DNA of 64,000 nt from Lophium mytilinum (taxonomy: Eukaryota; Ascomycota; Dothideomycetes; Mytilinidiales; Mytilinidiaceae), in NCBI GenBank assembly GCA_010093605.1, contig MU004193.1:1123520-1187519 (forward strand). Direction: 5' to 3'. Below, one piece after another: positions 30,070-55,904 of the stretch. Every line of letters starts with the position of its first letter. The stretch's first letter is position 1. The position numbers and the translations under genes are program-made. The notes beneath the pieces were generated by a model. That model saw nothing but the letters and a program-made list of their open reading frames with translations, was not told where the DNA came from and did not search any database.

Positions 30070-32163
30070 TTACGTTTTTTGCCGTACCGCCATCTTGGTG
30101 GTTCCAAAATCCATAACCTTGGATGACTGTCCTGGTTGGGACTTATGGCGAGAACGACCTCGTTTTTGCCTCTTGCGTCCGTCTGGAGCAGGTGCAATGG
30201 GGGCAGGCCTATCAGGCTGCACCGCGGGGGGCTGCTGCTCGACAGAGTCTTCTTCTATTGAGTCCGGCCCATATCTGACGTTAGCGAGATCTTTGGTGGC
30301 CAGATCGGTCCTCCACACGTCAAGCGCCATCTGCGCCCAAGCGGGGATACGCTCTCCTTGTGACGCTTCACCAACACTCCGCTCCAGCTCATACATCTCC
30401 CACGGAGAGATTCTGAGCTTATGAAGAATCCACATGTTGATGCGTTCACGAGTGCTTGTGAAATCGCGTAGATAGTCGCTCAGGGTAGACTGACTGCTAT
30501 GACCCTCATCCAGGAGGAGCAAGTCTCGCCCATCTCCCCAGACATTCCCATCATCATAGAAAGCTGGCTCTCCTTCGTGGATGGTTGTAAGGTCTCCAAT
30601 GCCTCGCAGACTGTCGGGCTGCGCCAAACGCCAGATATCTGGCGTTTGAAGATCAGGCGCAGTATATTCTAGAGGAATGCGGTCGTCCCCGGCCATGCCT
30701 TTCGGGACGTCTTCCGCCGTAAGAACGGTGCTTCGTCGCTCAGTACTTCGATGCTGAAGCTGCGGTAAGGCCGACGATTCTTGTTTACTATGAGACAGCG
30801 AACTCTCATACTCGGGTTCTTGGATCCCAGGCTTGAACCGAGGCATTTCGCCGACTTTGACGTTATCGCCAAGATAGGCGCCGTTGAGCATGGCGGCGTT
30901 TCTTGGTTCGCCCACAACCTCACCCACATGCGACTCTGATTCGAAGGATATGTCGGACATGTGCGTTGCCACCGTCGTATTACCAGTCTGCAACTTGAAG
31001 AAGTGGTTGAATTTGCGTTGCAACTCTTCGTATTGCTCCTTCAATTCCCATTCAGCTGCACCCAATTCGTTTTCAATCTGTTCGTAATCATCCTCAGCCG
31101 GACCAACAAGGTCACGGGATGATTGGGCTTTCTCGAATAGCTCTTCTAGTTTGGTGTCTGTGGAGGTAGTCCCACTAATCCATGATATGCGTAAAGCATC
31201 CATAAAGATTCTATCCTTATCAGACACGTTCTGCCGATGTATTCGCAATTCAGTTCGTTTCTCCTGAACTTGGACCCGAAGCCTGGTTATATGCTCTTGC
31301 TTTTGCACAAATTTTGATAGATCGTCCATGAACCGATCATATACTCTCTGGGCTGAAGGATTTACACGCGGTAATTCGGCATTGTCACTAGAGATGACCA
31401 TGTAGGTCATATCTAGAGGCTTGGGTGGACCTGGTGGGGGCGGTGGGGGGGGAGGAGGAGGAGGAGGCGGAGCTTCAGTCATGGTGACAGATTTGACAGA
31501 TCCTTCTGTCTTGGTTGGTGTGTTAGGCGGTGGAAAGTCTTCTGGAGGTGGAGGTGGAGGTGGGGCTGGATGAGGAAGTACAAGCGTATCCTGGGATGGA
31601 TCCATGTCTATATCAATGGGTGGAATGCCGTCGCCGCTCAACGGTTGCTCCCTCTCGTCATTCTGGAATTCATCAGGGGCGGCTGGCGGCTGGATCGCTG
31701 CTGGTGGAGGGTGTATGAGATGGAGGAGGGGGAGGGGTGGAGGAAATATTGGTGGTGGTAAAGCGTCATGAGGTGGAGACGTTAAGGTTGATTCTTCCTT
31801 CACTGGCTGTTGTTTCGGCGTTGCAGGACGTGAGTCTTCGCTGAAGTATTCTTCAGCAAAATGAACCTTGGCCCGTGCTGGCTTTGGCTTTGGCCCCGTC
31901 GCAAAATCACGACCCCGCGGTATAGTTTCGTCTTCCCCAATCGTGTTTGAGTCTGAAGTAATTTCTGAAGGTGGGAATGAAGCTTGGAGGGGCGCCTCAG
32001 AAGAGCTCTTTCGGGAACAGTCCTCGGACGACGGCGTGCTAGGCGCGCACGATTCGACAGACACGGAAGGGCTAGCCTCCATCTAACGAGCACGGGAGTC
32101 AGAAGTGGCCAGAATACCATTGCGATTACTTACGTCTTCCAGAGGCATGGTGGACGTCGACAT
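30070..32163 (-). CDS. unit A coiled-coil protein with polyproline tracts, 680 aa
   Basis: Small exon 1 (32163-32134, MSTSTMPLED) joins in phase 0 to exon 2 (32082-30070) across a 51-bp intron with GTAAGT. The ATG opening exon 2 is an alternative start. Residues 1-245 are disordered, with polyproline runs at about 180-195 and 214-232 (APPPPPPPPPPPP in the second). A long helical, coiled-coil region spans about 252-375, containing VYDRFMDDLSKFVQKQ and the family segment AQSSRDLVGPAEDDYEQIEN. The family motif near residue 545 reads DFTSTRERINMWILHKL. The C terminus is basic (GRKRQKRGRSRHKS), a likely nuclear signal. Paralogous to the coiled-coil proteins of units B, C and D. Divergent from the unit A DUF6590 gene, 567 bp away. 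Function unknown. Confidence 0.7.
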
Positions 32164-32730
32164 CTGAGGCTGCTGCAAGTCCATTCACATCCCATGTTCG
32201 AGCCGCACAGCCAGACGTGGAGCGAACGGAACGGGCGCAAAAAAGGGGCAAAGAGCCAGCGGTTCAGCCAGCAAGAGCGCGGAATGAGAGAGATACGGCA
32301 TGAGCCAGAAAGCGACACGCTGTGGGCAGACCGCAACGGCAGACGGCGAGCCTTACATCGTGGTTGTGAGCGGTACGCCCCATTTAACGCGCCAGAGAGC
32401 TTTTGCGCGCTGTCCGGGATATTTTAGCGGCGGGAGCTTGATACAACGGATTGGGGCCAAAACAGGGGGCCAGCATGGCGGGCTCGGCTACGGCGACAAA
32501 TGACCAAGCGTCGATAACTGTAACGAAACCACATGCACGCTGTGCTGTCAGGACGCTTACCCTACTTATTACCGTGAGTGCCCCTCACTCAGACCAGCTG
32601 CTATGAGGCTCTTTGCTCGCCAGCGGTATTTGATTGCCCTCGTTCCAGCCCGAAAGGTTGCCGGCTGCTCCCCTAGGACATCCCCGCTGCTGGATGATCC
32701 ACCCCTCGTTTGGCCAACCATCATGTAAAT
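32164..32730. promoter_or_regulatory. shared upstream region of unit A
   Basis: 567 bp between the divergent starts of the unit A coiled-coil and DUF6590 genes. No gene and no clear TATA box. Must contain both promoters. Confidence 0.5.
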
Positions 32731-34354
32731 ATGTCTTCGAGCGTCTACTCGGCGTGGGTTTGGTCTCCAGAGCACCAGCGCCACTACTGTTACCGCTATG
32801 TGAACGGCCAAATCGAGTACCAGTGGTCAGGCCTCGCAACTGCCCAAGCGCAAGCAGCCGCGACAACATCGATACCGCAGACACCCCAGGGGACGAGGTG
32901 AGTGATAGTTTATATTATAGCCCTCGAATCTTTGATTGAAACCTTGTTACGGGCTGGAGCACTAGCTCTGCTAGTTGAATGGTTTTTGGAAGTTGTCGGG
33001 GGAGTTCGTTGCCTTGATCTCTTTGGTAGCCTCGTCCTCTCAGCAATGAAACTCCATACCCTTCAAGTCTAGCCCCAAGCACTCCCAACTTCCTCTGCTG
33101 ATCTCCACTATGCAGTGCTGTACCTCGCACAGTACCGACAATACCCTCGGCAGCCGCATCCTCGCCGGGAGCCACATCCTCAAGGACAAATACTTCCTCG
33201 GGAAAAAGGCCACAACCCAAGAAAGAGACTCCTATAGTGCAGGAAGAGAAAGATGACGACGAAGAAGATGAAAATGAGAGCGACGAAGAGGACGACGACG
33301 ATGATGATGACGAGGGTAGTGGAGCGAGGGAGGGAAGGCCGGCGCTTCAAGTATCATCTCAGGCGTACAGGCCAGTCGCAACCACAACGACCCAGCCCGG
33401 CCGGTCTCATAGTTACCAGTATGGAGCGCCCCAGCCTAACAGCTATCAATACGGAGGTGCCCAGTCTACCGCTGCTACATATGCGTCATCTGCAAACACC
33501 CCCTACGTCGCCCCCGCTTCGGCTCCCACGTCACCTCAGTACACCTTCCAACGTCCTCACACGGGTGCTTCTCAGACGGCTGTGCCACAAAAGCGGCAAA
33601 ACTCTTCCAATGGGGGAGGTCCAAACCATCGGCACATTAAAAGTACCGCGGAGGGTACCGAGTCAAAGGAAGAGTCGCTTGATCCTCGTACGTGGTTCCT
33701 GCACTCAACAGGTACCCTGACTGACCGTGTTAGGCTACAAAAGAGTATCCCTTCGGCACACATCGCAGTTTTTTTGTAGAGGAAGAGTCTTCAAGATGCT
33801 TTGGACCGAACCCGCTGGTGTCACTCCGGGGAAAACCCGCGGTTCTACCCATTTTAGTCTAATTAGGTTCAATGAGACGGCCTACTCTGAGATTCGTCGA
33901 TTTATTGTAATAAGTAACAAGGGAAAATACAGTCAGTGCATGTAAGTTTGAATGTGGTTTCTCACCCATCGTCAATCCCTTGTCAGAAACTATCTCACTT
34001 CCTCTCATTCGACCCAGTACGTATGAGACTAAGGCTAACAGTCATAGACCTATCCAAACATACCGTGGCCAGGGCGCTCGTAAGCAGGGGATTATAGTCA
34101 ATGATCACGCCTTGATCTATACTGGCGCCGAGAACGACGAACAACCGCAACTTCTTCCCGGCGAACGGATCACAAAACAACCTCTGCGCGTAGAGCCAAC
34201 GGGCCAGGAAACTCTCGAACCTGCCTCTCGGGTAAATTTTGGGAAGGTATACACCGTGGAACACAACGTCAAAGTGTTAGACGTTGGCGTTGTTGCTCCA
34301 CAGCACATATACCTCTTGATAAATTACTTCACCGACGCTGTGACTTCGGTGTAG
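32731..34354 (+). CDS. unit A DUF6590 protein with WW-like module, 417 aa
   Basis: Four exons: 32731-32897, 33116-33687, 33734-33941 and 34048-34354. Phases 2, 1 and 2 all close. Near the N terminus is a WW-like module, AWVWSPEHQRHYCYRYVNG, then a closing Trp (QIEYQW). A run of almost pure Asp/Glu follows at about residues 98-125, then a Ser/Gln/Tyr-rich linker. The DUF6590 domain fills 247-415: GRVFKMLWTEPAG, EIRRFIVIS, CIPIQTYRGQG, DHALIYTG, and SRVNFGKVYTVEHNVKV near residue 388. DUF6590 is a fungus-specific domain of unknown function, common in Pezizomycotina and often beside low-complexity or coiled regions. The phase-1 intron directly after LDP is shared with unit B and matches the LDS intron of units C and D. 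Confidence 0.83.
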
Positions 34355-36097: not shown

Positions 36098-38490
36098 TCA
36101 GCCTAGCCATCTTTGCGAACCGTATTCCGAATTCCTTCTCTTCCCTCCTTCATTTCGTCTTGCGTGCTCTCTCTCTCCTCCTATCACTCTCGTGTCTTGT
36201 TTTTGTCTCCTGTGCGGTCGCTCTGGTTCCTTGCCGGAGTGCTGTTCATCTTTCACATTGTTTCCAAGTGCCAAAGTCGAGGAGGCTTCGCTTGCTTCCG
36301 GGTCATTGCCATCATCCATCGGAGTATCTTCGGGTTCTATCGATCCTCCGGACTGTGCCGGGTAGTTCAATTGCCATTGCTCCGCGGGGCGTGTATTTCC
36401 TCTAGGCCGTGGTTGCTGATTGCTCTGTGAACTTGTCCCCATCGCCGCCTCGAATTCAGATCCTCTCCTTTTAGTTTGGTGAGTCTGAAACGCTTGCTCT
36501 TGTGCACCAGATGATGCCAGAGACTGAGGATACACCGGACGGGATGGATAAGCGGACGATGATGCCGGTGTCGATCCCCCAAGGGCATACGGTGGTTTTA
36601 TGGTGGACCCCAACACTGAGGGTTGCTGATACGGTGAAAGCTGGCCTTCAGCAGGTTGATATGCTCTCTCTGTGGATGATCCAGCATTGAGCTCTTTTGG
36701 AGCGCTACTTATGTTCGACCCAAAAGTGCCGCGCGAGGCTCCTACCACAGATCCCCAGTTCAAGGCTGGTTGGTGTGGCGAAGGCTGACTCTCCGTAGCC
36801 TGATGGTCTGCGAATATTGATGAACGAGTGTTGACATCGTTATCGGTAGCAATCTTTGTGTTACTTTTCTGATTCGTACTGTAATCAGACGAAGTCCTTG
36901 CTGGCCTATCCCGCCGCGGGGCGGTAGAGTCGGATTTACAGGCGTTCATGAACTGGTAAACGAGGGCTCGCTCCGAGTTTTTATGCACCTTCCCAAAATG
37001 CCGTACCTTCACATTGTGCTGGACGGTGTACACTTGGTCAAAGTTTATTCGAGACATCGGATCGAGTTTTTCCCAATGAGGGTCCGGCACAACACGAATA
37101 GCATCACCTAGTGGCAGTCGGTTTCTCTGGGTCATCTCTTCAGGCCTTAGTGGCGGGACAGTATCACCAGTATAGATGATGGCATGTCGACTTCTTTGCT
37201 TATCACCAGTGACACCCCGGCCTTCATATGTCTGGATGGGGAGGCACCAGCAGCAGTTACTGCGCATCTTGACGACGACAAACCAGCGGATTTTGACGAA
37301 GAATTTCTCCCCAAATCTCTTCGACTCAGCAAGGTTTTGTGCCGAGACTTCGTGGGCGGAGATCGTCATAGAAGCGGCTCGCTCTGCTACCGGCTCAGGC
37401 CAAAGAACTCGGAATACTTGGCCTACGAGGAAGTAATGATCCCCCTTTGGCTGGACACAGAAACCTAATTGTGTTAGAAAGTTGACTGAAACAGAATGGC
37501 TTAGTCCGACAATATCTTACGAGGATCTAATCGCTCGACTCGCCCAACGGTACCGGCAATCACCTCCGTGTCTACGTCGTCCACGTCTGGTCCCTCTTCT
37601 CTTTGACTAGGCATGGGTGGCGCATTCTGGATTTCTGTGGTACGGGAAGAAGTATCTATTGTCCTTCCCAAGGTCGACGGAGCTTGGCTCGAGCTCTGCA
37701 TTGGAGGTGCGTGGTACGCATTTTGGGCCGGAGAGGCGTCGTGCGAAATGTGGTTCGCGTTTGCGTAGTATGAAATCTGACTTGGATTCGAGCTCTGGAC
37801 TCGCATAGTTTGCGGTTGGCCATTCGTCAAGGGTGGGCTCATGGCCCCGGTGTTGCTAGAAAGATAAGGGGCATGCTGGGCCCAAGGAGAGTACTGAACA
37901 GAGTTCTGACCCATCTGGTACGGGTTCCAGTGGTTGGCCGCAACTGGACGATATGGCTGACCACCAGAGGCTGCATGGTATTCCGGCCCAATTCGTAAGA
38001 GAGAGTGTTGAGCTATGGTTGAGTTTAACGTGTGTGTTTGGCCAAACCCTCTCTCATTCGGTTGTGGTTGAACAGCATATATGCCACCGCTTGTGGTCCC
38101 ATTATCGATTGGAGCTTGTTCGAGGGTCGGAGTCAGCTGCGAAGTAGTCTGTGAGTTGCTTGACTCCACAACTGAAGGGGATGAATGCAGCTGATTGGCA
38201 GACGAGTTTTCTGCACTGTCTTCAAAATGTCTTTGGGGGTTACTGATACTCTATAGATTAGCCTCCAGTGCTGATTCCGCATCGAAGCATCGTCTTGGCG
38301 GGGCATATTGAACTCACTGATTGTTTGGACCGGTAGTGGCACCTGTTGCAGAAATTTGAGTGGTATTGAGTTCTGTACTCGCTCTAAAAATCCAGCTACT
38401 GCTTCCCGTATCGTAGTACCGATAATCATGGTATCTCTCGTCCCATATCCATTCCGGCGGCGGTGGTGGTTCTCCCTGAGGCGGTGCCAT
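36098..38490 (-). CDS. unit B DUF6590 protein with WW-like module and long tail, 753 aa
   Basis: Three exons: 38490-38318, 38242-37521 and 37464-36098, with phases 2 and 1 closing. The N terminus is MAPPQGEPPPPPEWIWDERY, a proline run leading directly into the WW-like module (HDYRYYDTGSSSWIF). A Gln/Ser/Pro-rich linker spans about 60-290. The DUF6590 domain (about 299-470) is the most canonical of the four: GQVFRVLWPEP, KIRWFVVVK, CCWCLPIQTYEGRG, RHAIIYTGD, LDPMSRINFDQVYTVQHNVK. A 280-residue disordered tail rich in Ser/Gln/Pro and ending in basic clusters is unique to this copy. The intron that units A, C and D have before the PIQTY-type strand is absent here. The phase-1 intron after LDP is kept. 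Divergent from the unit B coiled-coil gene. Function unknown. Confidence 0.83.
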
Positions 38491-38912: not shown

Positions 38913-40551
38913 ATGGACCTGGTAAAGCAGGAGCCGGTCGGTACTGAAGTCGTCTCGGCCAGCGGATATGACATTTTTACTGAACTTTCGTAAGTTTTCT
39001 TCGGCTCAGTAATTTTTGCTCCAAGTTCTAACTATATGAAGACTGCAATCATCAGTTCACCACTCCCCTTTACTACTCTCATCCGAGACACTCGATGCAA
39101 GAGGTCAGCTGGACCTCGGCTCTAGACCCTCGTTCCAAAATAGAAGGCTTGAGCTATGCGAAGGATCGCCGAACAATGCCTCTGCCGCATTTGACCAAGC
39201 CTCCTCAGCCTTGCTGCAAACGCAAGCGCCGTCCCCTCAAGAACATTATCAACAACACTCAAATGGGAATACATTGTACCAGATTTCCACTGGATCGCCG
39301 GAAACATCATCACAACTGCCAAAGAGGAGCACCTCTAGGCAAACCATGCCAAACAGCCTTCCACCGAGCAAAAGGTGGATCAGAGCACAACCACGCGTGG
39401 CTCGTTGGAGGGACAAAGTCTTGACTGCACGTGTTCGGAATAAAGAGCAAAGGAGGATATGTTCGCAGCAAAGGCAGCACTGCCATGGTCTCCAATGGCG
39501 GCTCACGAATAATCTCCAGACAGCACTGGAAGCCCTTGTACAAACGAAGGACCCGGAAAGCCTCAAAAAAGGTTTCCAAGGTCTTCAGCGATTGTGCGCA
39601 GAAGTGGGCGTGTTAATGAATGGATTGGAGGCTGAAAACGTGCAAGTAGATGCACAGGAAGACCATCTTTCTGATCTGGAATACCGTTTCGGAAAAAAAG
39701 AAGATGACCTCTTCCGCCACTTGGACATTGCATTACTCGGCGGCGACACGCAATATGAGAGCACAGATTCATTCTCCGACAGTAGCTCTAGTATATCGAG
39801 CTACGATTCCCCTGAAACCGAGATCCACCCTCTTCTCAAAGAACTTTATTCAAGGATGGGAGACCGAAACATCTATAAGGACCGCCGGATCGATTTCGAG
39901 ATGCGGCTTCAGCACGACGTCGAAGATCGCGAGACCCTTCGTGGAGAAGGGAAAGAAGTCAGCACCGATGAGGAGTTCTACCGCACGCGACTACCGGAGC
40001 AGTTACGAATACAATATGATCTGTCCCAAGCACGCGAAGATGTTCGACGGCTTAGGCAGTTATGCTTCAATGAGGGTATCGAGGTTGAGCACATCGTTGA
40101 GGACGACGACGATGGATCAGCTTTTGATGCTCATTCTGAAGTGTTCTCAGCGCCCGTGGATCTGGAACATTCTACAAAACCCTCGACTACGGACTGGTGC
40201 CCTCCGCAAGCATCTCGATCTTTTAGCAGTATATCACCCGGGGTAATCAATAGCTTCGTAAATACCCGCGAGCGTGTCAGGAAGTGGTTAGCCGATGCCC
40301 CTATGGTAGAACCAGCGCTCGAAGCACCCGCAATTCAAGCAATATCCAAGGACCAGAGTTGGGTCAAGCTAGTGCGAGCACCATGGCCATCAAAGGAGGC
40401 TCTACAAGGCGGGATCTCTGGCTACGATGCACCTGACTGGATCCAGCCCGCGCAAGCCCAGCTCTCCAAATCGGCACCTTACATTCGAACCCCGTCGACT
40501 GAAGCCTACGACAACCCTCCACGAGGAGGACGCACATGCAGTTCCTCGTGA
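38913..40551 (+). CDS. unit B coiled-coil protein, 528 aa
   Basis: Exon 1 (38913-38989, MDLVKQEPVGTEVVSASGYD) and exon 2 (39042-40551) join in phase 2 across a 52-bp intron with a GTAAGT donor, a CTAAC branch site and an AAG acceptor. A CAG acceptor 14 bp further on would break the frame. Residues 1-110 are disordered. Residues about 120-330 are helical and acidic/basic-alternating, with LEALVQTKDPESLKKGFQGL and the family segment LPEQLRIQYDLSQAREDVRR. A Ser/Asp-rich break separates the two helical parts. The family motif near residue 430 is SFVNTRERVRKWLADAP. The C-terminal 80 residues look disordered. It is the most divergent of the four coiled-coil paralogues. Function unknown. Confidence 0.68.
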
Positions 40552-42999: not shown

Positions 43000-45066
43000 T
43001 CACCGAGAGGGCCGATCCGGCTTCCTGGCGTGTGGAGCGAGGTTTCCGATGCCAATTTCACTGTGTGCCCGTCGGCGATGCGGGTTCAGAGGCACCAATC
43101 TATATGGTTGCAGCACCTCTTCAAGTGGTATAAACTCAAGAGGTGACGGTGATCGAGACAGACGGTAGTCAACTGTTTCAGGTGGACTAGGTACATCGTG
43201 GCTTGGCTCATTGACTGTGGGTATGCCTGCTACTGTATTCTCAGGATCCAGCGGAGGAGTTCGAGGCTGTCTATCCCGGTGCCAAGAGCCATCGTACGTC
43301 GCAAGATACTCTGCCACCGCGCGTTCTTGTTTCGGACCTCCTGGCTCAGACTGTGGCCTGGTTCTGCCTGGCCGTTCATTGGGGAATAGGGTTCGGTGAC
43401 TCTGAATTGCTTCTTCGATCTCAGCAAGAGCCGTTTCGTGGCTTCGAACTACGACATCTGGGTAAGTTTCTTGCGTGGGTGTGATTCCTGGAGATGATGC
43501 CGGGGATTCTTGGTCTACTTCGTCGGATATTACTTTTGTTTTACAATGTGGCCAGTGAAGACAAGATGCTTCCATTACTGGAGATGGTTGGCAAGAATCT
43601 TTCAGCGGAAGGGGTGGTGGTAGACTGATCGCTGAATCTGCAAGCATCTGTGGGTCGTTGATGACAGGATGTTCCACAGCGTGGCCTCCTGACTGATCTT
43701 GCGGCTCTGTCAGGGAGATAGCAGGTTCATTCAGGGGAAGTACCGCCGTCAAATCTTCCGAAACTTCATCATATAAATCCGCGGTGCTGGCTAGAAAGGC
43801 AACATCGGGTCTTCCCTCGGTTACAGTTTTCCTAGTAACAGATCCCACGGCGTGCGCAGTTTGATGAGATGCCGACGGACTTTCTAAATGTTCATGAAGC
43901 AGGGGACTGCTTGTTATGTCATCATTCCAGTGTTTGACGATCTGCAGCCATGAATCTTCATCGAGATTTTCAGTCCTGAGACTCTTGAGGAGGGTCTTGA
44001 ACCGCGTCCATTCGAGAGGGGATTCATGGAGGCTCTCCAGCATCCAAATGCCAATACGCTGTTTGACGCTTGAAAAGTCACTGACTAGATTCGATACCGC
44101 ACTGTCGGTCCACGCTCGACTGGAACTTGGCCTGGTCGGCAATGCTCTCTGACTGAAGATGTACAAAGGGTCCGACGCTCGTCGTTCGACATTTGGATTA
44201 TGTCCCTCGGTGTACATTTGCTGCTTCCAGCGCTGCAGTTCATTTTCTGCCGCTATCAACCGATCAAGGATTATGCTAGCTCGCTCATAGAACTCTCTCA
44301 AATATCGCTCGGTCTCTGGTGGCGTTGAGAATTCGGCCAACATTCGCAATCGGCGCTCTTCCATGTGTCCAACCTCTTCTTCCCGAAATTTGTTGAATTG
44401 AGCTGTGAGCTTTCCAACTTCTGCAAGAGCAGACAAAAATCCTTGGTTGATTATATCGTTGTTGGTCTCCGGCATCACCACCTCGGTAGTCGGCGGTTGT
44501 GGTGGTGAAGATGATGCGGACGGAGGTTGGGCTGGTCGATCGTCATTCGGAGCAAGTCGTTCACGTAAGGGCTTGAGAACCTGTTCCTCAAATAAATCCA
44601 GAGCGTCCATATCATAGAACTCATTTTCCTTTTCGAGCATTTCCCATTCAGAGATATTGAAGATCCTATCATCTTGCATACTGTCATCCTCGGTTTTGCC
44701 TATGTCATCCCGTAACTCTTGGACAAGCTGGTATTGCTCCTGAAGTTCAGGAGGAAATATCTCATTCCTCGTTATGTAAAGGCGTCGAAGGCTTTTCATG
44801 AACTCCGCTTCAGCATCTCCAGCCTTGAGCCGCTTTTTCCGGATAGCACCATCGGTTAAGCGAAGATTGACCCGTCCTTGGACTACCCCTTCTCTCATTT
44901 GTAGCAGAATCCTTTGTTGGTCTTGGAAAAGGCGTAAGAATTTACGGACCAGTTCGAGCAAATACTCCTCTTCGTTTGGTAGAGGCTTTGGACTCGCTTC
45001 TAGCCTTGTGTCTTGCTGAGAAGAACGCTGAGGAGGACGCAAGTCCGGATTCGGGTCTCTCGACAT
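43000..45066 (-). CDS. unit C coiled-coil protein, 688 aa
   Basis: Single exon. The frame extends upstream only through non-ATG codons, so the ATG at 45066 (MSRDPNPDLRPPQRSS) is used. A coiled-coil region starts at about residue 31 (EEEYLLELVRKFLRLF) and includes the family segment PPELQEQYQLVQELRDDIGK, then a second helical block with QFNKFREEEVGHMEERRLR and MLAEFSTP. The RRASDP motif and, at about residue 330, DFSSVKQRIGIWMLESLHES follow. The C-terminal half (about 400-688) is disordered and Ser/Pro/Glu-rich. Unit D's protein shares the FREEEV, LA-FSTP and RRASDP blocks, so C and D are sister copies. Divergent from the unit C DUF6590 gene. Function unknown. Confidence 0.72.
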   Translation of the reverse strand: MSRDPNPDLRPPQRSSQQDTRLEASPKPLPNEEEYLLELVRKFLRLFQDQQRILLQMREGVVQGRVNLRLTDGAIRKKRLKAGDAEAEFMKSLRRLYITRNEIFPPELQEQYQLVQELRDDIGKTEDDSMQDDRIFNISEWEMLEKENEFYDMDALDLFEEQVLKPLRERLAPNDDRPAQPPSASSSPPQPPTTEVVMPETNNDIINQGFLSALAEVGKLTAQFNKFREEEVGHMEERRLRMLAEFSTPPETERYLREFYERASIILDRLIAAENELQRWKQQMYTEGHNPNVERRASDPLYIFSQRALPTRPSSSRAWTDSAVSNLVSDFSSVKQRIGIWMLESLHESPLEWTRFKTLLKSLRTENLDEDSWLQIVKHWNDDITSSPLLHEHLESPSASHQTAHAVGSVTRKTVTEGRPDVAFLASTADLYDEVSEDLTAVLPLNEPAISLTEPQDQSGGHAVEHPVINDPQMLADSAISLPPPLPLKDSCQPSPVMEASCLHWPHCKTKVISDEVDQESPASSPGITPTQETYPDVVVRSHETALAEIEEAIQSHRTLFPNERPGRTRPQSEPGGPKQERAVAEYLATYDGSWHRDRQPRTPPLDPENTVAGIPTVNEPSHDVPSPPETVDYRLSRSPSPLEFIPLEEVLQPYRLVPLNPHRRRAHSEIGIGNLAPHARKPDRPSR

Positions 45067-45900
45067 AGTAGGCTTTGTTGTGGCGTGAGGAGTAGTGGGC
45101 ACTTCGCTCTCCTGTGGACATTTCCGGATAATATACGGCGGCCGAAAGCGCGGTCCGACCGGTGTCACTTGAAAGTTTCAGTGCTGAGACAGGAGACGGA
45201 GAAGAACAGGCAGGTTAAAACGAACGTTGATATGGTCCACGGTTATGCTATGTCCCGAGCTCTGCAATGTGTAAGACTGAAGATCGATGTGTTGAGTTTA
45301 GCGGAGGGTGTTGCAATGGACAGCCCTTACATGGTCGCAATTTTGACGCGCCTGAGCTTGGCACGCGCAAGGTGATAACCGCGCTATTTATTACCTTGCA
45401 AAATGAAACAAATGAAAGCATTCCACTTGGTAGCGGCGGAGGGATTAAGGCAACCGTGCGTAAAGGGCTCGACCAAGCTAATTGCGGTGCACGAGCATGC
45501 ACCCAGCCGGGCGAGCAACGGGGGGCCCTCAATCGGTGAAGGCGATCGAACGAGGCGCTGGTGCGTCCCCCATAATCCGAAGGGTGGCACGCCTAAGTGT
45601 GAATCCCTGCGCCATACTAAAGCGGCGTTCGACCCGTGCGGTACGCACCAACCGCCTGGGATTGGGCCTGGGGCATTATGCATGGCGCATAACTCATAAC
45701 CCCTCCTTGTTACTTGCATGCAGCATTCAGACAGGGTGAAAGTGGGGAAGATGGACAATCGCTGCAGCGTAGAATAGCTCGTGATAGAAATGCGGCTCTG
45801 CGAGCGCTACGCTGGCAGCCACCGAGGTGTGGACAGGAACGTGGCCCGTATAAGAATGCCTCCCCCAACCGTGTGAAACCTGTCTAGATAGCAATCAAGC
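45067..45900. promoter_or_regulatory. shared upstream region of unit C
   Basis: 834 bp between the divergent unit C genes. Overlapping short frames on both strands (45384-45758, 45403-45699) have no coding support. Confidence 0.45.
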
Positions 45901-47159
45901 ATGGCTTCCAATAGCAACCCATGGGTCTGGAGCGAGGAATATAGGCGATACTACTGTATCTCTTATGATGAAGAGTGTAATTGTACCGACCTGAAGCAAC
46001 GTGTGGGCTCACTGACAGTCCAAGCAAACCCCGTGTACATTTGGCAAGATGTCACACCTAGTGTAGCACCCACCCCTACCTCACTCGGTATAGCAAGCAA
46101 TACTGCAACCGCTACGCAGCGTGCGTTTTCTGACATGTAGCGACAATTTGAATGTACTAATCAGCTCAGGCCCCCCTCCGCAGACTTGGGCCTATGGAAG
46201 CCATCCTACAAGCCACGCCGCAGTCAACACAACGACAAATGCTGTATACAGCACACCCACGGAGGGTGCAAATGATCCACGGCGACGCGATTCAGTGATG
46301 ACTAGTAAGCTACTCACTTGTAATGATGTTATAATTGAACCGTCTACGTTTAGATCATTGAAGTGAACTGACATGGATCACTCAGAAAAAGCACCGGACT
46401 TGGGCAACCATATCAAGGGGACGAATGGAGACTTCGAGGAGCTAGATTCAAGTATGACCCTGGATGACTGAATATCGCATAGCACTAACAACTGCAGGCT
46501 ATTCTGTAAGGAAGGATGGCAAGAGATTTTTCAAAAGAGGAACAGTAAGACCTTTCCCATAGTTGATTGGACCTCGGCTTATTAGTTTTTACAGCTCTTC
46601 TCGGTCCTGTTTAGTGAAGGCATGGGAGAAACGCAAAAAATGCAGGACAACGAGAATGTCACTACGGTCAAATACGGTGGGAAGGTGTTTACACAGATAC
46701 GCCGATTTGGTAAGGCGTGTTCCTGGACAGAGCTCCCCGTATAAATTTAACAGTTCACCAGTTGTCGTGGCAGAACGTGAGGGGTTCTGCTATGCGTGGT
46801 ACGTTTAGAGATTCTCATGTACCCATTCAACCGTTTTTTAACAAATCGAATACAGTCCAGTCTTCACGTACACCGGTCGTGGGACCCTGAAACCGGGCTG
46901 TCGGCCGTGGGAGCATGCCGTCATATACTACAGCACGTTGCAATCTCCCATAACTCTCGATGGCGAGAACCAGATGAAGAATTCTCCCATCGGGGTGAAA
47001 CCAGAGCCTACCGAAACGAGGCCATTGAGTACCGCCTCCCGTGTACAATTCGGGAAAGTGTACCCCATTGATCACAATGTCAAGGTGAAACTTCTCGGGA
47101 AAGTCATAACTGAGCACATGGGAAGGTTGATCGCCTACTATAAAAATGAGCTCGATTGA
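45901..47159 (+). CDS. unit C DUF6590 protein with WW-like module, 280 aa
   Basis: Eight exons: 45901-45976, 46025-46087, 46170-46304, 46386-46451, 46498-46544, 46595-46709, 46762-46798 and 46856-47159. Every phase closes to 281 codons, and each piece aligns with the unit D gene, which supports this highly split model. The WW-like module is NPWVWSEEYRRYYCISYDEE plus a closing NPVYIW across the first intron. The short linker ends ELDSSYSVRKDGKRFFKRGT. The DUF6590 domain (about 118-278) reads LFSVLFSEG, FTQIRRFVVVAE, CYACPVFTYTGRG, EHAVIYYS and SRVQFGKVYPIDHNVKVK. It is the most compact of the four, close to domain plus module only. Unspliced reading of exons 1-3 gives a premature stop, so gene finders may truncate it. 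Function unknown. Confidence 0.78.
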
Positions 47160-47924: not shown

Positions 47925-49679
47925 CTACGTCAGCCACTCTACCTCCCTTTCTAATGGCTCGATGACGTTGGCGTAGATTCCATTTCGTGTCTCAGCATCG
48001 TCCAGCCTCACACTCTGACCCCCCTGCACCCAAGTTAGGTCCAAACAAGCTTCAACTGAGGAACGGTATGGCGACGCATCCATTTTCTTGACAATACGAT
48101 CCGCGACTATCAAATTAAGGTTGTCCTCGGTAGCGGCCGTCAGATTCGAGCGCTCCTGCGTGCTCCGCCAACACTCGATTGGCTTTTCGTTATGTATCTC
48201 GATAAGAAGAATGCCCAGAGTGAGAATATTGGAGTTCGGATGGAACACTCCGGAATTTGGTTGTCCGACTTGCCTTGCGGGGCTCTCAAATCTAGTCGAA
48301 AGGTATGGTCTCGTATAATCTGGCTCGTTTTGGAGGTTGACGAAAAACGAGAGATTGCTCTTGTTCCATCCGCGGCTAAGCCATGGACTATCATGAAAAA
48401 GAAGAAGCGAGTAGGAACATATCAACGCAAGTCTGCGCTTTTCTAATGGTCCCATCTTTGCATTTTCAACCAGTAGTTCCCCTAGGGATATTGGTTTTTG
48501 TGGCTCGAGTAAGTTGTGGATCCGTCGAGGTTTAGGGGCCAATCTCCAAAGAGACTGCTGTCCGTTGATGTCTTCCATGAGAATGCGGAGCCTGAAGTCT
48601 CTCAAGCCCATTTTCAATGCGTCACAAACTCTTTGGAGCCTAGTTTCGTCGTCGGCTCGCGGTATACTGTTCCCAAATTAGTCAGGTTAGAACTCCATCA
48701 GCCTCAAAATGTACGCTTACCTGGCCGAGCAGACTGACACAGTCCCTTCTTGCCAACAGTGCGCGCTGTTCTGTGAAGAAGTTGTGGTGATGAAGAAGTC
48801 AAGGTCTACGACGTCGGCGTTCAAGTTTGCCGAAGCTTCCTGGACGTAAATGCAGAATCTGGCTTCATGTCCTCCGTTGCAGGTACACTTCCACGAGCGA
48901 GCAAACGCATCATACAACTTTCTTGTTAGTAGCCGGGCTGGCGCAGAAGGGCTTGTGAGTGCGAGGAAAAACCCGCTTTTTCCCTGAGTGTGTTCACTAT
49001 GTCGGCGCCCCATAAGAGGCAGAACATGTGTCTGAGATCCTACTTTCTCAATGAGATCTCTCAATCTCTGATTCCTGAGTTTCAATCTCTGCAAGCAATC
49101 ATTGCGATGATTCTTTTTTCTGAAAAAGTGGAATCTTTCCATGAAATTGCTTTTCGTTCTCTTTGTTTCTCTTTCCAAGGCGAAGCCTTTCAACTTTTCA
49201 TACATTTCGGATTCTTCCTACAGCCACTTAGTACGTAAGACTCAGAAGAGTTGTTCCTGACTAACCAAGTCTTTGTTGGCAACGTATGTCATTTGGTTCT
49301 TGAGGAGCTGAGCCAGGAGTTGCACGATTCTTTTTGACGTTGTGCTAAATTTGTTGAACGCAGCCTCCGAACCAAAGTAACGGCGAAGACGCTTCTCCAC
49401 TTCTGAGTTTTGAATCCAGTCATCCAGCTTCAACGCAGAGGCAGGACGATATTGTCCCGGGGAATCCGAAATAGCTCTAGATATCTCTGCAACGTGCTCT
49501 CCTAGCTCACTTATTTCCCAGTAAAATTCGTCGTAGAAGTCGCTAAGGCTCGCATTACGGCGAGATTTTAAAGAAACATTAAGAACTGTGTCCACTCCAT
49601 CCGAGTACGCTTTCCCAGCCTCGATAAAAAGTGGCAGCAGCGCAAGGACAAGACCGGCACACTCGACTCCCGTAACCAT
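47925..49679 (-). CDS. DUF7580-type fungal protein (kinase-like fold remnant), 550 aa
   Basis: Three exons: 49679-49266, 49217-48721 and 48666-47925, with phases 0 and 2 closing. The N-terminal helical domain starts MVTGVECAGLVLALLPLFIE. The middle part carries RKLYDAFARSWKCTCNGGHE, the Cys/His signature common in this family. The C-terminal part resembles a degenerate protein-kinase C-lobe, with LLVENAKMGPLEKRRLALIC, SLLLFHDSPWLSRGWNKSN and FHPNSNILTLGILLIEIHN. HRD and DFG catalytic motifs are not seen, so kinase activity is unlikely. DUF7580 proteins are abundant, variable fungal proteins often found near heterokaryon-incompatibility and NLR-like genes. It is isolated in orientation between units C and D, with a 600-bp upstream gap to the zinc-finger gene. 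Family fairly sure, role unknown. Confidence 0.8.
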
Positions 49680-50280
49680 GGCGATATCTCAGAGGTAGCA
49701 ATTGGAGTGCAATGATTCGAAAGGCTTGTCGAACTTGATTTTGTGTCTCACTAAAGATTCAGCTGCTTGTGTCTTGGGTCGTTGAAATAAAAAAGCTCGC
49801 GGTTCTTGAGGGGTCAAGAGTTCTAGTGGGGTCACCGCCAATCATCAAGACCTTCCGGTGAAGGATGTTCCGGTGAGTGCTGCGACTGACCGAGGATAGG
49901 AATCTCTAAGAGCGTCCGGTGAAAAGCAATAAGCTTGACGATTCCAGAGAGCGCCCTGGGAAAAATCCATCATTACTAGATCTATATCGAAACATAAATA
50001 GTACGTCACCCGCTGCTCTGCTGTACCCCATCACCTTGCTATAAGTCGCAAGATTGAGTGCAGTTTACCCCGCACTAGAAAAAGCAAATGAGTGCACGTC
50101 TCAGCATTTTCTATCACCGACCCAGCATTGCAGATTCTAATGCTTGTCGAGGCTTAGTTTACATTTCTTGCAACGCTTTGGTAAGATCTTTTCAATTTAG
50201 CCTCTAAGTACTACTATCGAACTTTTAGAGAGACATTCCATGCCCTGTTGAGGTTCAAGCTCCAAGAATCTCTTCTCAGC
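49680..50280. promoter_or_regulatory. upstream region shared by DUF7580 and zinc-finger genes
   Basis: About 600 bp between divergent starts. No gene and no clear core element. Confidence 0.45.
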
Positions 50281-51856
50281 ATGGACACAGTAAAGTTCGA
50301 AAACGATGCAAGAATCAGCACTTCTACGGAGCAACTACACTACGACAATTTCATATCTATACAAACTGCTGCGAATCATTGCGCTAGTATCTTCACTAGC
50401 TCAAGAGCAATATCTATTCGACAGGAGTGCCCAAAAGGGATACTAGTCGACTTCGAAACCCAATGCAGTCGATTCAAGATTTGGGCATGCGGTCTCGATA
50501 TCTCTTTCAGTCAAGTTAAGGCGGAGCAGCTGAGTGAAGAGCGGCTTAAGACTGAGAGTAAGTGCGAAACCGATGAAGTCGTTGCCCATCTGCTTCGAAG
50601 GCTCGCCGGAAAGCTCCTTGCATTTTTGGCATCACCTTTGGATACTCAAGCCCGACCTGAAGAGCAGTCAAGCCAGGCCGGAAATAACGCAGAATCAACG
50701 AGTCCATGTTCTTCGGTGTCCTCTCTGGTGCTTGAATCGGATGCAGAATCTTCCGACTCAGATGATTCACCCCCAGACTCCGCAACACTCCGGACAAACC
50801 TTGCTCGCCGGCATCCTCTACTGGTAGATGCTGATAATATCATCACGCGTCTCTATCGCTTCAATGCTATTACCAGGATATACACAGCACACGGTGAGCA
50901 CCAAAGGTCTCCTCAGCATGTTGGGGCTGATCAACAGTACCCTGACCCACCGGGTTTCCAGTTGCTTGTCGAAAACGACGTTCTGAGGAGTAGTCCCCGC
51001 CTGCAACATTTGCCAGCTTTGCAGGAGCGTATTGTTCGCGCAGCTCTTCACCGGGACAGAAGAATTCGTGGTTGGAAACCCCATGAACAGGAGCCTCTTG
51101 AAGCTGATGCCTCGGAAACTGAGATACCTCCAGCAGGACCAGAAGATTGTCTTGGGATTCCACATATGCCGCAACCTATCAGGCCAAGTTCATCGGAAGC
51201 TCAATGTCCTATTTGCTCCAAAACCTTTAATCACGGGCTTGAAGAAAATCGGAATACGGGAAAATGGTGGAGGTAATGTGTTAATCGCCGCTTGAGTTTC
51301 AGTCCTTCTACTAATCTAACTGGGTAATTATAGGTCCCATGTTATGGAAGATCTAGAACCATACGTCTGCCTATTTGAGGAGTGCCCTATGGAGTATCAA
51401 GCTTTTCGGACTATCGCTGATTGGATAAATCACATGGCGTGGCAGCATACCACGTTCTACTCCTGCCAGTTTGGCGGCCACGAGAATGTATTCTTCCTCA
51501 GCCGGAAAGCATTCGAGTGTCATCTAACGCAAGATCATCTTGATAACATCCCTAAAGGAAAAATTGACCATATCATCTCAAAAGGCCTCCGGCCGGCCCC
51601 GGATCTGATAACAGTGCTCGTGGCCAAAGCAGATCTGACGACACATGCCCTTCTCGATCACGTGTCCTTGTGTCCCTTTTGCTATATCGGATTGAGTATA
51701 TTCGGCTTTCCCTTGAATGTAGAAGCAAATGGTACTGCAATCTCACTAATTCCATCTGCGCTACATTTGAAAGTACAAGACCACGTTGCTGCTCACCTAG
51801 AATCCATTGCGCTGCTTTCGTTAAAAAAAACGAGGACCGTACCCTCCTACCCTTGA
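50281..51856 (+). CDS. C2H2-like zinc-finger protein of fungal incompatibility-type families, 504 aa
   Basis: Exon 1 (50281-51272) and exon 2 (51334-51856) join in phase 2 across a 61-bp intron. The ATG at 50281 is the first in frame. The N-terminal 330 residues are mostly helical with an acidic Ser/Asp patch (ESDAESSDSDDSPPDS). The zinc-binding part spans the intron. CPICSKTFN lies before it and WWRSHVMEDLEPYVCLFEEC across and after it. Then come WINHMAWQHTTFYSCQ, FECHLTQDHL, and CPFCYIGLSIFG with HVAAHLESIALLSL. This Cys-His arrangement is typical of zinc-finger proteins associated with fungal NLR-like and ankyrin genes. The frame stops just after an A8 homopolymer, only 70 bp before the unit D DUF6590 start on the same strand, so the two could be one gene. 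Function unknown. Confidence 0.72.
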
Positions 51857-51926
51857 TCATTCGGTGTCTAAAGCAGCCAATTCGCGAACTCTGGAAGATT
51901 CATGGCCCGCCGCATCAAATGCGCCC

Positions 51927-53204
51927 ATGAATGCATCCACAGATGCGCAGGCCACATCCCAGCCAACAACGCTCTTCCGTCAAAGATCCGCTGAACCTGC
52001 GCATCCACCGAATGCTAGTCATTTGGAATCTGGTGTCATTACATCATCAGATGTAGAACCCGCTGCACATGCACAAAGGCAAATGGCTTCGCAGCCAGCG
52101 TCATCCTCTTATCATCCGGCCTCGAACTCTTCTGCACAAAATACCGGCCTGTCCATGTCGCTCACCAATGCTTGGACATCCGAGACTTCTAACGCGAATG
52201 TGTGGACTTGGAGCGAGCCTTACCAGAACTATTACCGCGTCTCTTGGGACTCGAAAGGTAGTATCACTATGTGAAGTTAAGGATGCGTTGTTCACTAATT
52301 ACGATGCAGGCGCTCCAATATACCACTGGGCCGAAATAAAACCTACCATTTCAAGTCCGGTGAACCCAGCGAGTTTGGTATCTTTGCCTGCAAAGGGTAG
52401 GTCGACTTCCCTTTATGTTGAGTACTCGTTCTTTCAGATATTCTATCAATGCCGTTACGTTTCCAGAAACTGACAAGCCATAGATGAAAGCAAGGCTGCA
52501 AATGTTAGCAGTGGAACGCTCAGTAACGCAGAATTACTTGACTCGAGTGGGTTTATTACCGTAGACTCAAACATGTTGTTGCTAATTGCTACAAGGCTAC
52601 AGACTCCAAGCTTCTAGGTTCTTTAGGAAAGGAAGGGTAATTTACCCTGTAAGCAGCCTTAGTTTGGTAATACTATTGACGCAACTCTGTAGATGTTCTC
52701 AGTTCTTTCCACTGTCGGTGATACCGCACCTAAAACAGACAAGGAGAGCGGGTATGGTAGTGTAGTTCGGCACCAAACGACTACGGCGGCGCAAATTCTC
52801 CGATTAGTCTCCGTCGATAACAAAAACGAGGTGTGTTATGCCTGGTAAGTTTCACACGATACTCATCACGGTGAGACGCTGATAATGATAGTCGTATCTC
52901 TACATACGGAAAACGAGGTACCCTCGGAGAAGGGTGCCAACCTAGCCAGCATGCCATTATCTACTACGTTGGGCGTCAGGATCCTATCCTTCTGGAAGGA
53001 GAAATGGGAATAAAGAAAAACCCAATTGGAGTCACACCTATGGAAGGCGACTCCTCGCTATCAAAGATGCACGTTGCTTCGCGCCTTAACTTCGGAGATG
53101 TGTATCAGATAGAGCACAACGTGAAAGTAAAAGATCTCGGGAAGGTCATCGACGAAGACATGTCGTACCTGATTGCCTACTACGAGCAGGGAAGAAAGGG
53201 ATAA
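51927..53204 (+). CDS. unit D DUF6590 protein with WW-like module, 328 aa
   Basis: Six exons: 51927-52257, 52310-52396, 52484-52546, 52596-52636, 52693-52844 and 52892-53204, with phases closing to 329 codons. The start is uncertain. The WW-like module (NVWTWSEPYQNYYRVSWDSK, then APIYHW after an intron) begins near residue 90 rather than near the N terminus, and the first 85 residues are low-complexity. The linker ends LLDSSYRLQASRFFRKGR. The DUF6590 domain (about 160-326) has MFSVLSTVG, ILRLVSVD, CYACRISTYGKRG, QHAIIYYVG, and SRLNFGDVYQIEHNVKVKDL. Introns within the WW loop, before MFSVL and within the CYAC segment match unit C. Unit C's extra intron in the VVV strand is absent. Transcribed in tandem with the unit D coiled-coil gene. 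Confidence 0.78.
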
Positions 53205-53987
53205 TGTGACTCATGCTCTACACGGTCATGGAAATTGAGGATTAAACACTAAGCGCAGTTCAATGTTGACCTAAATGTCTTGATTTAAAGTGATGGTGAG
53301 TTATTGAAAGCTTCCGGCTGTATCGATTTGAAACTCGAGGCTGCTAAATAGTTCATATACCGATTTCGTTATTTAATTGCGTCACTGAGACAATAGTCCT
53401 CTTGTCACAAGCGGATTCAAACGGCAGAACTTTATACCATGACTCTAGCAAGACACTGCGTGGCCTGATTAACGACCGGAGGGAGTGAAGTGCCCGGGAA
53501 CGCAGCACGCTACAAGCTATAACGTAACGATAGTATGCTTCCAAAATATGGTTAAACAATTGATTGGAATCCACTCAATCCCCTTTAATAGAAGTCCTGT
53601 AACTTGAAGGATCCCTATGCGATGTTCCTATGCTTGCATTGCGATCAGACAACAGCAGGAATGGCTTCACACGGGCCGGGCGCTTCGCTGGCGAATAGGG
53701 CTATGGCTTAGAACTAGTATTTTCACCAGCCGCGACTTCATTGGTGTGCACGCGCGAGTGGCACAAGCCACATGCAATGCTGGGCAGATTTACGTTCTAG
53801 CCTGCAACGAAACCCACGTAGACGTCTGCGTCCAGAGTGCCCACTGTGCACACACTCTGCTCTGGTGATGTCAAGTCCGAGACCTATTGGCTTTTGATGC
53901 ATACGGCGTTTTTCGAAGAACCCTGTTTTCTGCTGTCCATGCCGGCGTCCCCGAGCTGCTCTCACTCATTCAAAGCCTGGGGCAGTC
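53205..53987. other. spacer between the two unit D genes
   Basis: 783 bp with no gene recognised. Presumably the 3' UTR of the DUF6590 gene and the promoter of the coiled-coil gene. Confidence 0.5.
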
Positions 53988-55904
53988 ATGTCGACAGATC
54001 GAGGTCCAATTGCAGACCTACCAGAGGAACTTTGCGGCGATACTTCTGATGTCCGTCCAAACCGGCCTTACCTTCCAAACTTCTCTAGCGTGTGTCGTCA
54101 TAAGGACTGTCATCTTTCTCAACACAAGGACCGTCATTTCCATCGCAAGTACCGTCAACATCTAGAGAACGTGCAGAGGAGGCATGAACAGCTCGCGCAG
54201 TCAAGAGAACGAATAGTCATCGAGCGAGTGGAAACCCGATCTATATTGCAATCGATTCGTCCGCACCGAGAGAGAGCTGGAAACCTCGAGGCTTCATTTG
54301 TGACGAGGCTGAGACAATTCTGTGCGCGGCAAGCCAGTGTTCTTCCTCCGGATATTGACGCACTGTACCAAGAGGTTCAAGAAGCACGAGACACGATTGG
54401 TAAACTCGAAGATGACTTTATCGAAGCCCAGAAGTCGTATAATGCCTCTGAATGGCGGTTCATCGAAGCAGAGGATGATTTCTATCAGTATGATATTCTA
54501 GAAGATCTCCCAGAGACTAGCGACGAGGGCAGTATTAGCGACAGCGCACGTGGAGAGCCTACAACTTCACTCGTCATAACCCAACCAGTCGCTAAAGCTA
54601 TGATGGAAAGACTTTCCCGCGATCTCGTAAGCAATACGATAGAAAAGCGCCAGCTCAACGATCAGTTCAATGACTTCCGGGAGGAAGAAGTTGTACCAAT
54701 GGATGAACAAGAACTACGGTTACTTGCCGACTTTTCAACTCCGCGGAGGATAGAGGAGGAAAAGGACTTATTTCAACAAGCAGCAAACGTGGTTATCGAG
54801 AAACTCGTTGCTGTCGATGTCAGAGAAAGAAATCTAAGGCAAGAAATGCTCAGTATCGCCCACTCCTCCATGGCCCTTAGTCGCCGAGCTTCGGATCCTC
54901 CGAGATCGACTATGATGCCTTCACCAACTTCAAACATCGAGGCAATCTCACGCGAGATGAATGAAAGCAACTTGGCTGTGTATGGCCACGACCGCATAAG
55001 TAATAGAAAGAGAGTGGGCCAATGGATACTTGATACTATGGAGACGTCATCTCTTGAGAAAGCTCGATTCAAGCACTTTCTCCGCAGTGCAAACAATGAG
55101 GAGTTTGATGAGTCCATCTTTGAGCAGATCTTGATTCAGCGTTGGATGGATGGGAGCTCTAGTAGTTCAGCAAGTCGCACTGGCCAAGACGGCCCGATGT
55201 GGCACAGAAGCGTTGCGAGAAGTGAGTCTATGGAGGCAAAGAGAGAAGAATATGAGCCTTCGGAGACTCTGATGTCCAGACATGCAAAGAGCACATGGAC
55301 ACCGCCCATCTCCGTCAAATTTGCCTCACCACCCCATCACCAACTAGAGCTCAGAAACACAACACCGGAAAATATGGAAAGCTCTGATCATACGAGCAAT
55401 CTCTCTACAAATGACCGACACATAAGTCAAGACAAGACTACCATCGATCGCCCTAACCCCACGCTAGACTTTCATCAACATGCCTACGAATTACGTATCC
55501 AGCCTGAGAGATCTAGTGATCGGCCTCGATCAGATCTAGGGGATATCGGTGACGCTGGGAACGTCACTTTCGATCTGATTCTACCCAACTCATCCGCGAA
55601 CGTTGAGACCTCGTCTACCACCCAATACCGGTACAATGAGCCTTTGCGAGCTCCTCCGCCAATGATCACCGAGAACATCAGAGGCGCCCACCAGCTATTC
55701 ACATATACCATCAACAGACCATCTCCAAGTCCACCGCTTACAATGGCGTCTAGCGCTTCAGTCGTAGTTAATATCTCACGATCTGCTTCACCAATGAGCG
55801 ATGGTATTGAGCCACATGAATTACGGCGATGCCCCAGAGGAGATCTACCGCTTGCAAGGTCTGCATCCCACCGAAGATCTCGGAGTGAAAGCAACGCTTG
55901 CTAG
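53988..55904 (+). CDS. unit D coiled-coil protein, 638 aa
   Basis: Single exon from the ATG at 53988 (MSTDRGPIADLPEELCGDTS). A His/Arg/Lys-rich patch (HKDCHLSQHKDRHFHRKYR) precedes a long coiled-coil region, about 55-300. Its family segment is PPDIDALYQEVQEARDTIGK, followed by NASEWRFIEAEDDFYQ, both close to unit C. The second helical block has QFNDFREEEVVPMDEQELR and LLADFSTP, and RRASDP follows. Near residue 338 is NRKRVGQWILDTMETSS, equivalent to the R-x-x-x-W-hydrophobic motif in the other copies. The remaining 250 residues are disordered, Ser/Pro/Arg-rich, ending RSASHRRSRSESN. This copy is not divergent from its DUF6590 partner but lies 783 bp downstream on the same strand. Function unknown. 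Confidence 0.72.
   Translation: MSTDRGPIADLPEELCGDTSDVRPNRPYLPNFSSVCRHKDCHLSQHKDRHFHRKYRQHLENVQRRHEQLAQSRERIVIERVETRSILQSIRPHRERAGNLEASFVTRLRQFCARQASVLPPDIDALYQEVQEARDTIGKLEDDFIEAQKSYNASEWRFIEAEDDFYQYDILEDLPETSDEGSISDSARGEPTTSLVITQPVAKAMMERLSRDLVSNTIEKRQLNDQFNDFREEEVVPMDEQELRLLADFSTPRRIEEEKDLFQQAANVVIEKLVAVDVRERNLRQEMLSIAHSSMALSRRASDPPRSTMMPSPTSNIEAISREMNESNLAVYGHDRISNRKRVGQWILDTMETSSLEKARFKHFLRSANNEEFDESIFEQILIQRWMDGSSSSSASRTGQDGPMWHRSVARSESMEAKREEYEPSETLMSRHAKSTWTPPISVKFASPPHHQLELRNTTPENMESSDHTSNLSTNDRHISQDKTTIDRPNPTLDFHQHAYELRIQPERSSDRPRSDLGDIGDAGNVTFDLILPNSSANVETSSTTQYRYNEPLRAPPPMITENIRGAHQLFTYTINRPSPSPPLTMASSASVVVNISRSASPMSDGIEPHELRRCPRGDLPLARSASHRRSRSESNAC

Follow-up and report, generated by a model that had tools for sequence, protein, structure and literature searches.

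Why do four genes of one fungal protein family, within a single stretch of DNA, each stand beside a long gene of another kind? We addressed this question for a 64,000-nucleotide stretch of the Lophium mytilinum genome (43.18 Mb), part of contig C13 and called the window below, in which four genes encode a DUF6590 (PF20233) domain. Our computations reveal a pairing of DUF6590-like genes with partner genes, its recurrence with two partner families, and a predicted fold for DUF6590 that matches the bacterial toxins MazF and CcdB. Our leading reading, held tentatively and at slightly less than an even chance, is that the window contains four copies of a two-gene module in which a MazF/CcdB-fold protein and a dedicated helical partner would work as effector and restrainer.

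Four DUF6590 genes each adjoin a long partner gene

All four DUF6590 genes exceed the curated Pfam cut-off in a profile search, and each adjoins one of four long open reading frames (ORFs). The ORFs and Pfam matches bear out the original prediction of their order, partner-DUF6590, DUF6590-partner, partner-DUF6590, DUF6590-partner (units A to D). The genes of units A, B and C diverge, with 582, 477 and 831 base pairs (bp) between the modelled starts; unit D is a tandem of DUF6590 D followed by partner D. This layout, too, had been predicted, but as four plain two-gene units, and D also lies with a C2H2-like and a DUF7580 gene. Exon models were built for all four DUF6590 genes (Table 1). That of C agrees, apart from one small additional intron close to the start, with the deposited Lophium mytilinum protein BU16DRAFT_620199, which is 100% identical to the unit C DUF6590 domain.

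The four partners had been proposed to form one coiled-coil family. C and D are clear relatives by BLAST (33% identity, 1e-40), and A is related to both, matching C at 2e-8 over 104 residues and in a second collinear block around a shared R-x4-W motif; by sequence, A, C and D are one family (family 1). The proposal falters at B, which is weakly similar to the others by BLAST and borderline by family profile (9.0 bits; 1000 full shuffles peaked at 6.1), while being the top non-member among 2085 frames. Pfam recognises none of partners A-D, and a Pfam scan found no NLR, HET or protease domain in the partners. Genome searches with A, B, C, D and an orthologue from Mytilinidion resinicola returned no further clear family 1 copy, only weak places at C2:35106, C4 and C20 (E 0.09-2). 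The coiled-coil label has only partial support: A and C stand out in a crude heptad test, together with the Mytilinidion protein and partners E, I and K described below (0-2 of 60 shuffles reach them), but D, J, F, G and H do not (6-16 of 60; an unrelated control, 4 of 60), and no window of B passed the filter.

A second partner family recurs at three other clusters

We took 19.5-24 kb around every other DUF6590 locus in the genome and scanned 2085 frames, the window included and overlapping loci counted twice. A narrow regular expression of the window motif, R-x-x-[IV]-x-x-W, recovered A, B and D, two ORFs on contig C16 and four non-partner frames. C16 carries three divergent DUF6590/partner pairs. 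Searching the genome with one C16 partner returned seven genes on C16 and C10, query included, and a C16 DUF6590 protein as query picked up DUF6590-like genes at those loci, of which four matched no better than E 0.02-0.34. The seven partners form three clusters on two contigs: E, F and G on C16, H and I on C10 near 655 kb, and J and K on C10 near 265 kb. They make up one family with a conserved C-terminus (family 2), for which hhalign detects no homology to family 1 (probability 0.2).

Ten DUF6590-like genes accompany these clusters, including the extra genes G2, L and M. Iterated profiles unite them in one family, which profile-profile comparison relates to DUF6590 (probability 78-81, P ~1e-5); E and F alone pass the Pfam PF20233 cut-off. 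Genes K, L and M (loci L055 and L056; C10:270002-276404) are three tandem DUF6590-like genes with one partner, in a stretch covered to C10:277,700. Six of the seven family 2 partners (E-I and K) diverge from a DUF6590-like gene, so that among all 11 partners, B included, nine are divergent, one is tandem and one is loosely clustered. Neither family 2 component was found without the other in the genome searches. Searches with the most distant family 2 and DUF6590-like members gave no other genome place better than E 0.86, the counts for both being lower bounds, and the further C16 flanks hold no more members of these families. A weak place on C1 (E 0.2) was discarded as a proline-rich frame that scores 4.2 bits against the partner profile and has no DUF6590 within its 3.2 kb. 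Fused DUF6590-partner proteins, beyond the partners themselves, are absent from 123 proteins (120 listed DUF6590 matches, P0001, P0002 and P0123).

With the arrangement present both in the window and at the C16/C10 clusters, each of two partner families is linked to DUF6590-like genes. The pairing of these genes with a dedicated partner is, with near certainty, real. The original prediction of a functional pair gains from this recurrence with a second, not detectably homologous partner family, and from the presence of both families on Mytilinidion contigs of 590,201 bases, but the pairing is not strict.

The partners contain a common tryptophan segment

R-x4-W, noted earlier as part of an R-x4-W-hydrophobic motif, is indeed present in all four window partners. 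The segment, R-x-x-[IV]-x-x-W-[ILVM], follows the helical part of the protein. A widened pattern matches all 11 partners as well as the Mytilinidion protein, none of 121 proteins from the DUF6590 search and 11 of 2200 shuffles. The widened pattern was fitted after the sequences had been seen; only the narrow expression was blind, and it found E and G.

The DUF6590 domain is predicted to adopt the MazF/CcdB fold

AlphaFold models of the DUF6590 domains of B (as P0123) and C both have the MazF/CcdB fold, and we consider it very probable, on these models, that DUF6590 has this fold. An earlier guess at a toxin-antidote-like module gains weight from this prediction. The conserved residues of DUF6590 are an Arg, Thr, Tyr, His and Asn set that includes Arg 59/60 and Thr 78. 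By hmmscan, the PemK_toxin (MazF) family PF02452 matched none of 20 DUF6590 or DUF6590-like proteins. Scans by pattern for relatives of DUF6590 in bacteria or viruses gave 9 and 20 matching stretches, none of which was confirmed.

A WW domain comprises two Trp residues about 20-22 apart and a three-stranded sheet. The WW-like N-terminus of DUF6590 C has predicted strands at 9-11, 16-22 and 28-32, with mean model confidence (pLDDT) of 58, 91, 91 and 71 in blocks of ten residues; Pfam did not recognise the WW-like motif in 10 proteins. Long runs of proline occur in partner A (30073-32082, minus strand), and DUF6590 A carries a WW-like motif. WW domains bind proline-rich stretches; a second contact between the two proteins of unit A is possible, one not general to the other units.

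Pfam lists the function of DUF6590 as unknown. A literature search found no paper naming DUF6590, PF20233 or DUF7580 and none on the Lophium mytilinum genome; by title and the start of the abstract, no paper concerned a MazF or MazF-like system in filamentous fungi. Among the matches listed, the broader toxin-antitoxin literature deals, by title, with bacterial systems or their use, persisters and algal chloroplast translation. A search of PMC7180214 for the names of catalytic residues found no match.

DUF6590 is widespread in ascomycetes

Of 7991 proteins scored in a search with DUF6590, 239 reached E<=1e-5, and the best 120 of these include many from Pleosporales, Penicillium, Hortaea and lichen fungi. 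In Mytilinidion resinicola the orthologue of partner D, BDZ99DRAFT_526596 (P0002), lies on a contig 590,201 bases long. Contigs of that length also carry two DUF6590 genes of the species: BDZ99DRAFT_399963, 89% identical to DUF6590 A, and BDZ99DRAFT_526598, 67% identical to DUF6590 C and 49% to D. We infer that all three genes share one contig and that 526596 and 526598 are near neighbours. The Mytilinidion orthologue P0012 is 89% identical to DUF6590 A over 150 amino acids (aa), and the A lineage reaches 65% identity in Cenococcum. In the DUF6590 tree, C groups with the gene of contig C7 (support 0.89) and the Mytilinidion gene rather than with D, so the type of partner seems to have changed over time. 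When the protein database was queried with partner D, and again with a profile built from A, C, D and their Mytilinidion relative, only D itself and one orthologue came back. Even window partner C was missing, and the profile search scored only the 7990 candidates that share most words; the lack of further matches therefore says little about the distribution of the partners. Protein P0006 of Mytilinidion resinicola has two DUF6590-like domains and an N-terminal charged helical stretch, and the segment between the domains has, by eye, a retroviral-type protease look. In P0094, a Penicillium roqueforti gene model, DUF6590 is fused to a guanylate-kinase domain.

Possible modes of action: effector and restrainer, or adaptor and scaffold

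Bacterial MazF-fold proteins with dedicated neighbours are toxins with antidotes. In the module that we propose, both genes are usually transcribed outward from one short intergenic region. The effector would be the MazF-fold protein, which, by the example of MazF and CcdB, might be an RNase or might inhibit some other machine. Its partner would bind it through the conserved W-containing segment, keep it inactive and carry the sensing part; disturbance of the partner would release the effector, and the hypha would be arrested or killed. Binding, restraint, toxicity and trigger are the inferred steps of this scheme. By analogy, the pair may work like MazEF, a suggestion that we also put at somewhat below an even chance.

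Several observations weigh against this scheme. Strict pairing, as originally claimed, fails: in the frames scanned, the DUF6590 genes at C2, C5 and C7 show no such partner nearby, and Mytilinidion resinicola mixes subtypes, with a C-type DUF6590 and a D-type partner. Partner J lacks a convincing divergent DUF6590-like gene, having only a 53-codon frame upstream (8.7 bits), and the nearest such gene lies 1.8 kb past its 3' end. No promoter word is common to the nine divergent regions above shuffles. Membership of B in family 1 is unproven by sequence: one of 1000 local shuffles reached 9.5 bits, above B itself, the hhalign probability is 5.4, and a 62-codon antisense frame outscored B among 2911 frames (9.9 bits). 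The widened W pattern also occurs in 10 other distinct frames of those 2911, nine of them under 250 codons, and since the two partner families are not homologous by hhalign, their W motif could be convergent or due to chance. As to the fold, no Foldseek match of DUF6590 B reached E 0.001 and 47 of the 50 rows listed are unrelated. PF02452 is absent from the genome at E<=10, a search that detected the Escherichia coli, Bacillus subtilis and Corynebacterium glutamicum controls, and the DUF6590 profile found no MazF match among the PDB sequences. In the sole local alignment of DUF6590 with the E. coli MazF sequence, the DUF6590 Thr falls one residue off Thr52, and in DUF6590 B a Trp replaces one of the two conserved Arg. 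Finally, CcdB has the same fold and is not an RNase.

CcdB, as an example of the fold without RNase activity, also speaks for the strongest alternative, in which DUF6590 keeps the MazF/CcdB fold, has lost whatever toxicity it had and acts as an adaptor that binds RNA or protein, its partner being a scaffold in a signalling or RNA-regulation complex. Fusions of DUF6590 to protein kinase domains (P0055 and P0116, from Pycnora praestabilis and Byssothecium circinans), its nearness to C2H2-like and ankyrin-like parts (recognised by eye) and its WW-like motif are what an adaptor would have, and the good conservation of the A lineage in Mytilinidion and Cenococcum is unlike that of a fast arms-race gene. 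The strongly conserved Arg, Thr, Tyr, His and Asn, however, could be an active site, and tandem expansion within one lineage, alongside a dedicated partner, is in keeping with pairs of effector and regulator. We regard the adaptor as a serious possibility, at about one chance in three.

DUF7580 neighbours of unit D

At locus C5, one open frame encodes C2H2-like fingers followed by DUF6590, and at C7 a DUF6590 exon is preceded by C2H2-like, ankyrin-like and WW-like parts (the C2H2 and ankyrin labels were assigned by eye). Window positions 47925-53204 have the same order as C5 and C7, namely DUF7580, C2H2-like, DUF6590; DUF6590 D accordingly has two neighbours, DUF7580 as at C5/C7 and partner D in tandem, and unit D is more than a plain pair of genes. 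At 51820-51870 (plus strand), around an A-run near 51825, the C2H2-like ORF and the N-terminus of DUF6590 D are in different frames, which may reflect an assembly slip, a real frame change or two separate genes. The DUF7580 gene is open once two short introns are removed, and its protein, with a HeLo-like N-terminus (by eye) and a pseudokinase-like part, is reminiscent of the MLKL-type architecture.

These neighbours raise the alternative of a micro-cluster for regulated cell death or allorecognition, with the partner as sensor, DUF6590 as signal transmitter or killer and DUF7580 as alternative executioner at D, C5 and C7. All three C2H2-like/DUF6590 genes diverge from a DUF7580 gene, and two-gene units of executioner and sensor are an established fungal theme (PMC10197012, PMC12881547). 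Of 18 DUF7580 places found genome-wide, however, only three adjoin DUF6590, a fourth (C2:1637125) being about 12 kb from a DUF6590 gene, and the partners have none of the NLR, HET or protease domains sought; we judge such a cluster improbable.

It is very improbable that the fold call is wrong and DUF6590 is another small SH3-like barrel with a superficial likeness to MazF. Least probable of all is a by-product of tandem or segmental duplication of one accidental neighbour pair: the copies within each cluster are clearly duplicates, and C and D are alike in both genes, but two partner families without detectable homology are both tied to DUF6590-like genes, and the family 2 components were not found apart.

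An extension of the effector-restrainer module is rather unlikely as matters stand: filamentous fungi would hold a large family of their own of MazF-fold toxin-antidote or effector-sensor modules, with DUF6590 as toxin fold, at least two unrelated helical antidote families joined by a common W-helix, and DUF7580 (a HeLo-like pseudokinase) and fused kinases as further partners. Such modules would be an equivalent of MazEF in eukaryotes and would add a new arm to fungal immunity or to genome conflict.

Features of the window

Table 1. Coordinates of the DUF6590/partner units and adjoining genes in the window
Feature	Position	Strand	Basis
Partner protein A, 675 aa; two exons at 32134-32148 and 30070-32082	30070..32148	-	ORF, intron GTAAGT..TAG, family comparison
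RERINMWI motif (R-x-R-I-x-x-W-I) in partner A, residue 550	30427..30450	-	Coordinates derived by hand from gene model
Divergent intergenic region common to both unit A genes, 582 bp	32149..32730	.	Gene models
DUF6590 protein A, four exons: N-terminal WW-like motif, acidic/disordered middle, DUF6590 domain	32731..34354	+	Pfam, exon model
DUF6590 protein B, three exons, 753 aa; predicted MazF/CcdB fold in the domain model P0123 (36950-37462)	36098..38490	-	Pfam, exon model, structure model
Partner protein B, 505 aa; family membership possible, unproven; start codon uncertain	38968..40551	+	ORF, profile scores
RERVRKWL motif in partner B, residue 412	40267..40290	+	Coordinates derived by hand from gene model
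Partner protein C; frame open to 45177	43000..45069	-	ORF, family comparison
KQRIGIWM motif in partner C, residue 369	44041..44064	-	Coordinates derived by hand from gene model
DUF6590 protein C, seven exons; deposited as BU16DRAFT_620199; predicted MazF/CcdB fold, WW-like N-terminus	45901..47159	+	Exon model, protein match, structure model
DUF7580 protein, three exons, N-terminal segment presumably HeLo-like; divergent from C2H2-like/D gene	47925..49679	-	Pfam, exon model
C2H2-like gene upstream of DUF6590 D (zinc fingers by eye; Pfam E 0.098)	50185..51856	+	ORF, comparison with C5, C7
DUF6590 protein D with WW-like motif; possibly C-terminal part of C2H2-like gene	51927..53204	+	Pfam, exon model
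Partner protein D, in tandem with DUF6590 D; 638 aa; Mytilinidion resinicola orthologue is P0002	53988..55904	+	ORF, family comparison
RKRVGQWI motif in partner D, residue 340	55005..55028	+	Coordinates derived by hand from gene model

Upstream of these units, three tandem plus-strand ORFs (23875-24720, 25236-26435 and 27112-28398) look alike by eye, each with a terminal segment resembling V-x-x-W-V-x-x-L-P-E-T, and contain no Pfam family. The third was rejected as a fifth partner, showing no relation to the partners in the family comparison; the first two were unmatched by any profile in the scan of 2911 frames. A DUF6590-profile match at 23652-23936 (13.7 bits) was set aside as a chance-like match of 42 residues with no Pfam support.

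Comparison with known systems

Like MazEF and PemIK, the DUF6590 units combine a MazF/CcdB fold, here a predicted one, with two adjacent genes, and the conserved Arg and Thr of DUF6590 lie near the places of the two essential residues of MazF, the Thr one residue off in the sequence alignment. The units differ in being eukaryotic, in having no PF02452 sequence match and in being mostly divergent instead of operonic. Their partners are long helical proteins of about 390-720 aa, whereas MazEF/PemIK antitoxins are short, and DUF6590 proteins, unlike MazF, have extra WW-like, C2H2-like or kinase parts. CcdAB invites the same comparison, since CcdB belongs to the fold family predicted for DUF6590; CcdB poisons bacterial gyrase, a topoisomerase in the PDB titles, and not RNA. 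Genes for a toxin-fold protein and a partner are adjacent here, as in type II toxin-antitoxin systems, but nine of 11 partners are divergent rather than in a co-directional operon; because neither the PF02452 profile nor the operon layout is present, we do not class the units as type II. MazF has at least two antitoxin families (PMC4041440), and DUF6590 likewise has more than one unrelated partner family.

Among fungal systems, the gasdermin/protease and het-S/nwd2 clusters resemble the DUF6590 units in that two adjacent genes form a functional unit (PMC10197012). Units A-C and the family 2 partners differ from them, with no gasdermin, protease, NLR or HeLo domain found by Pfam; a DUF7580 gene adjoins unit D, and the DUF7580 neighbours at D, C5 and C7 may fit the setting of a fungal cell-death cluster. 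Within Pfam, the window genes are members of DUF6590, for which the fold and the pairing are new here. A MazF/CcdB fold together with a dedicated, repeatedly recruited partner gives this family, which has no described function, a testable role. Should the pairs act as effector and restrainer, fungi would possess their own MazEF-like system, one relevant to allorecognition, antiviral defence and selfish elements.

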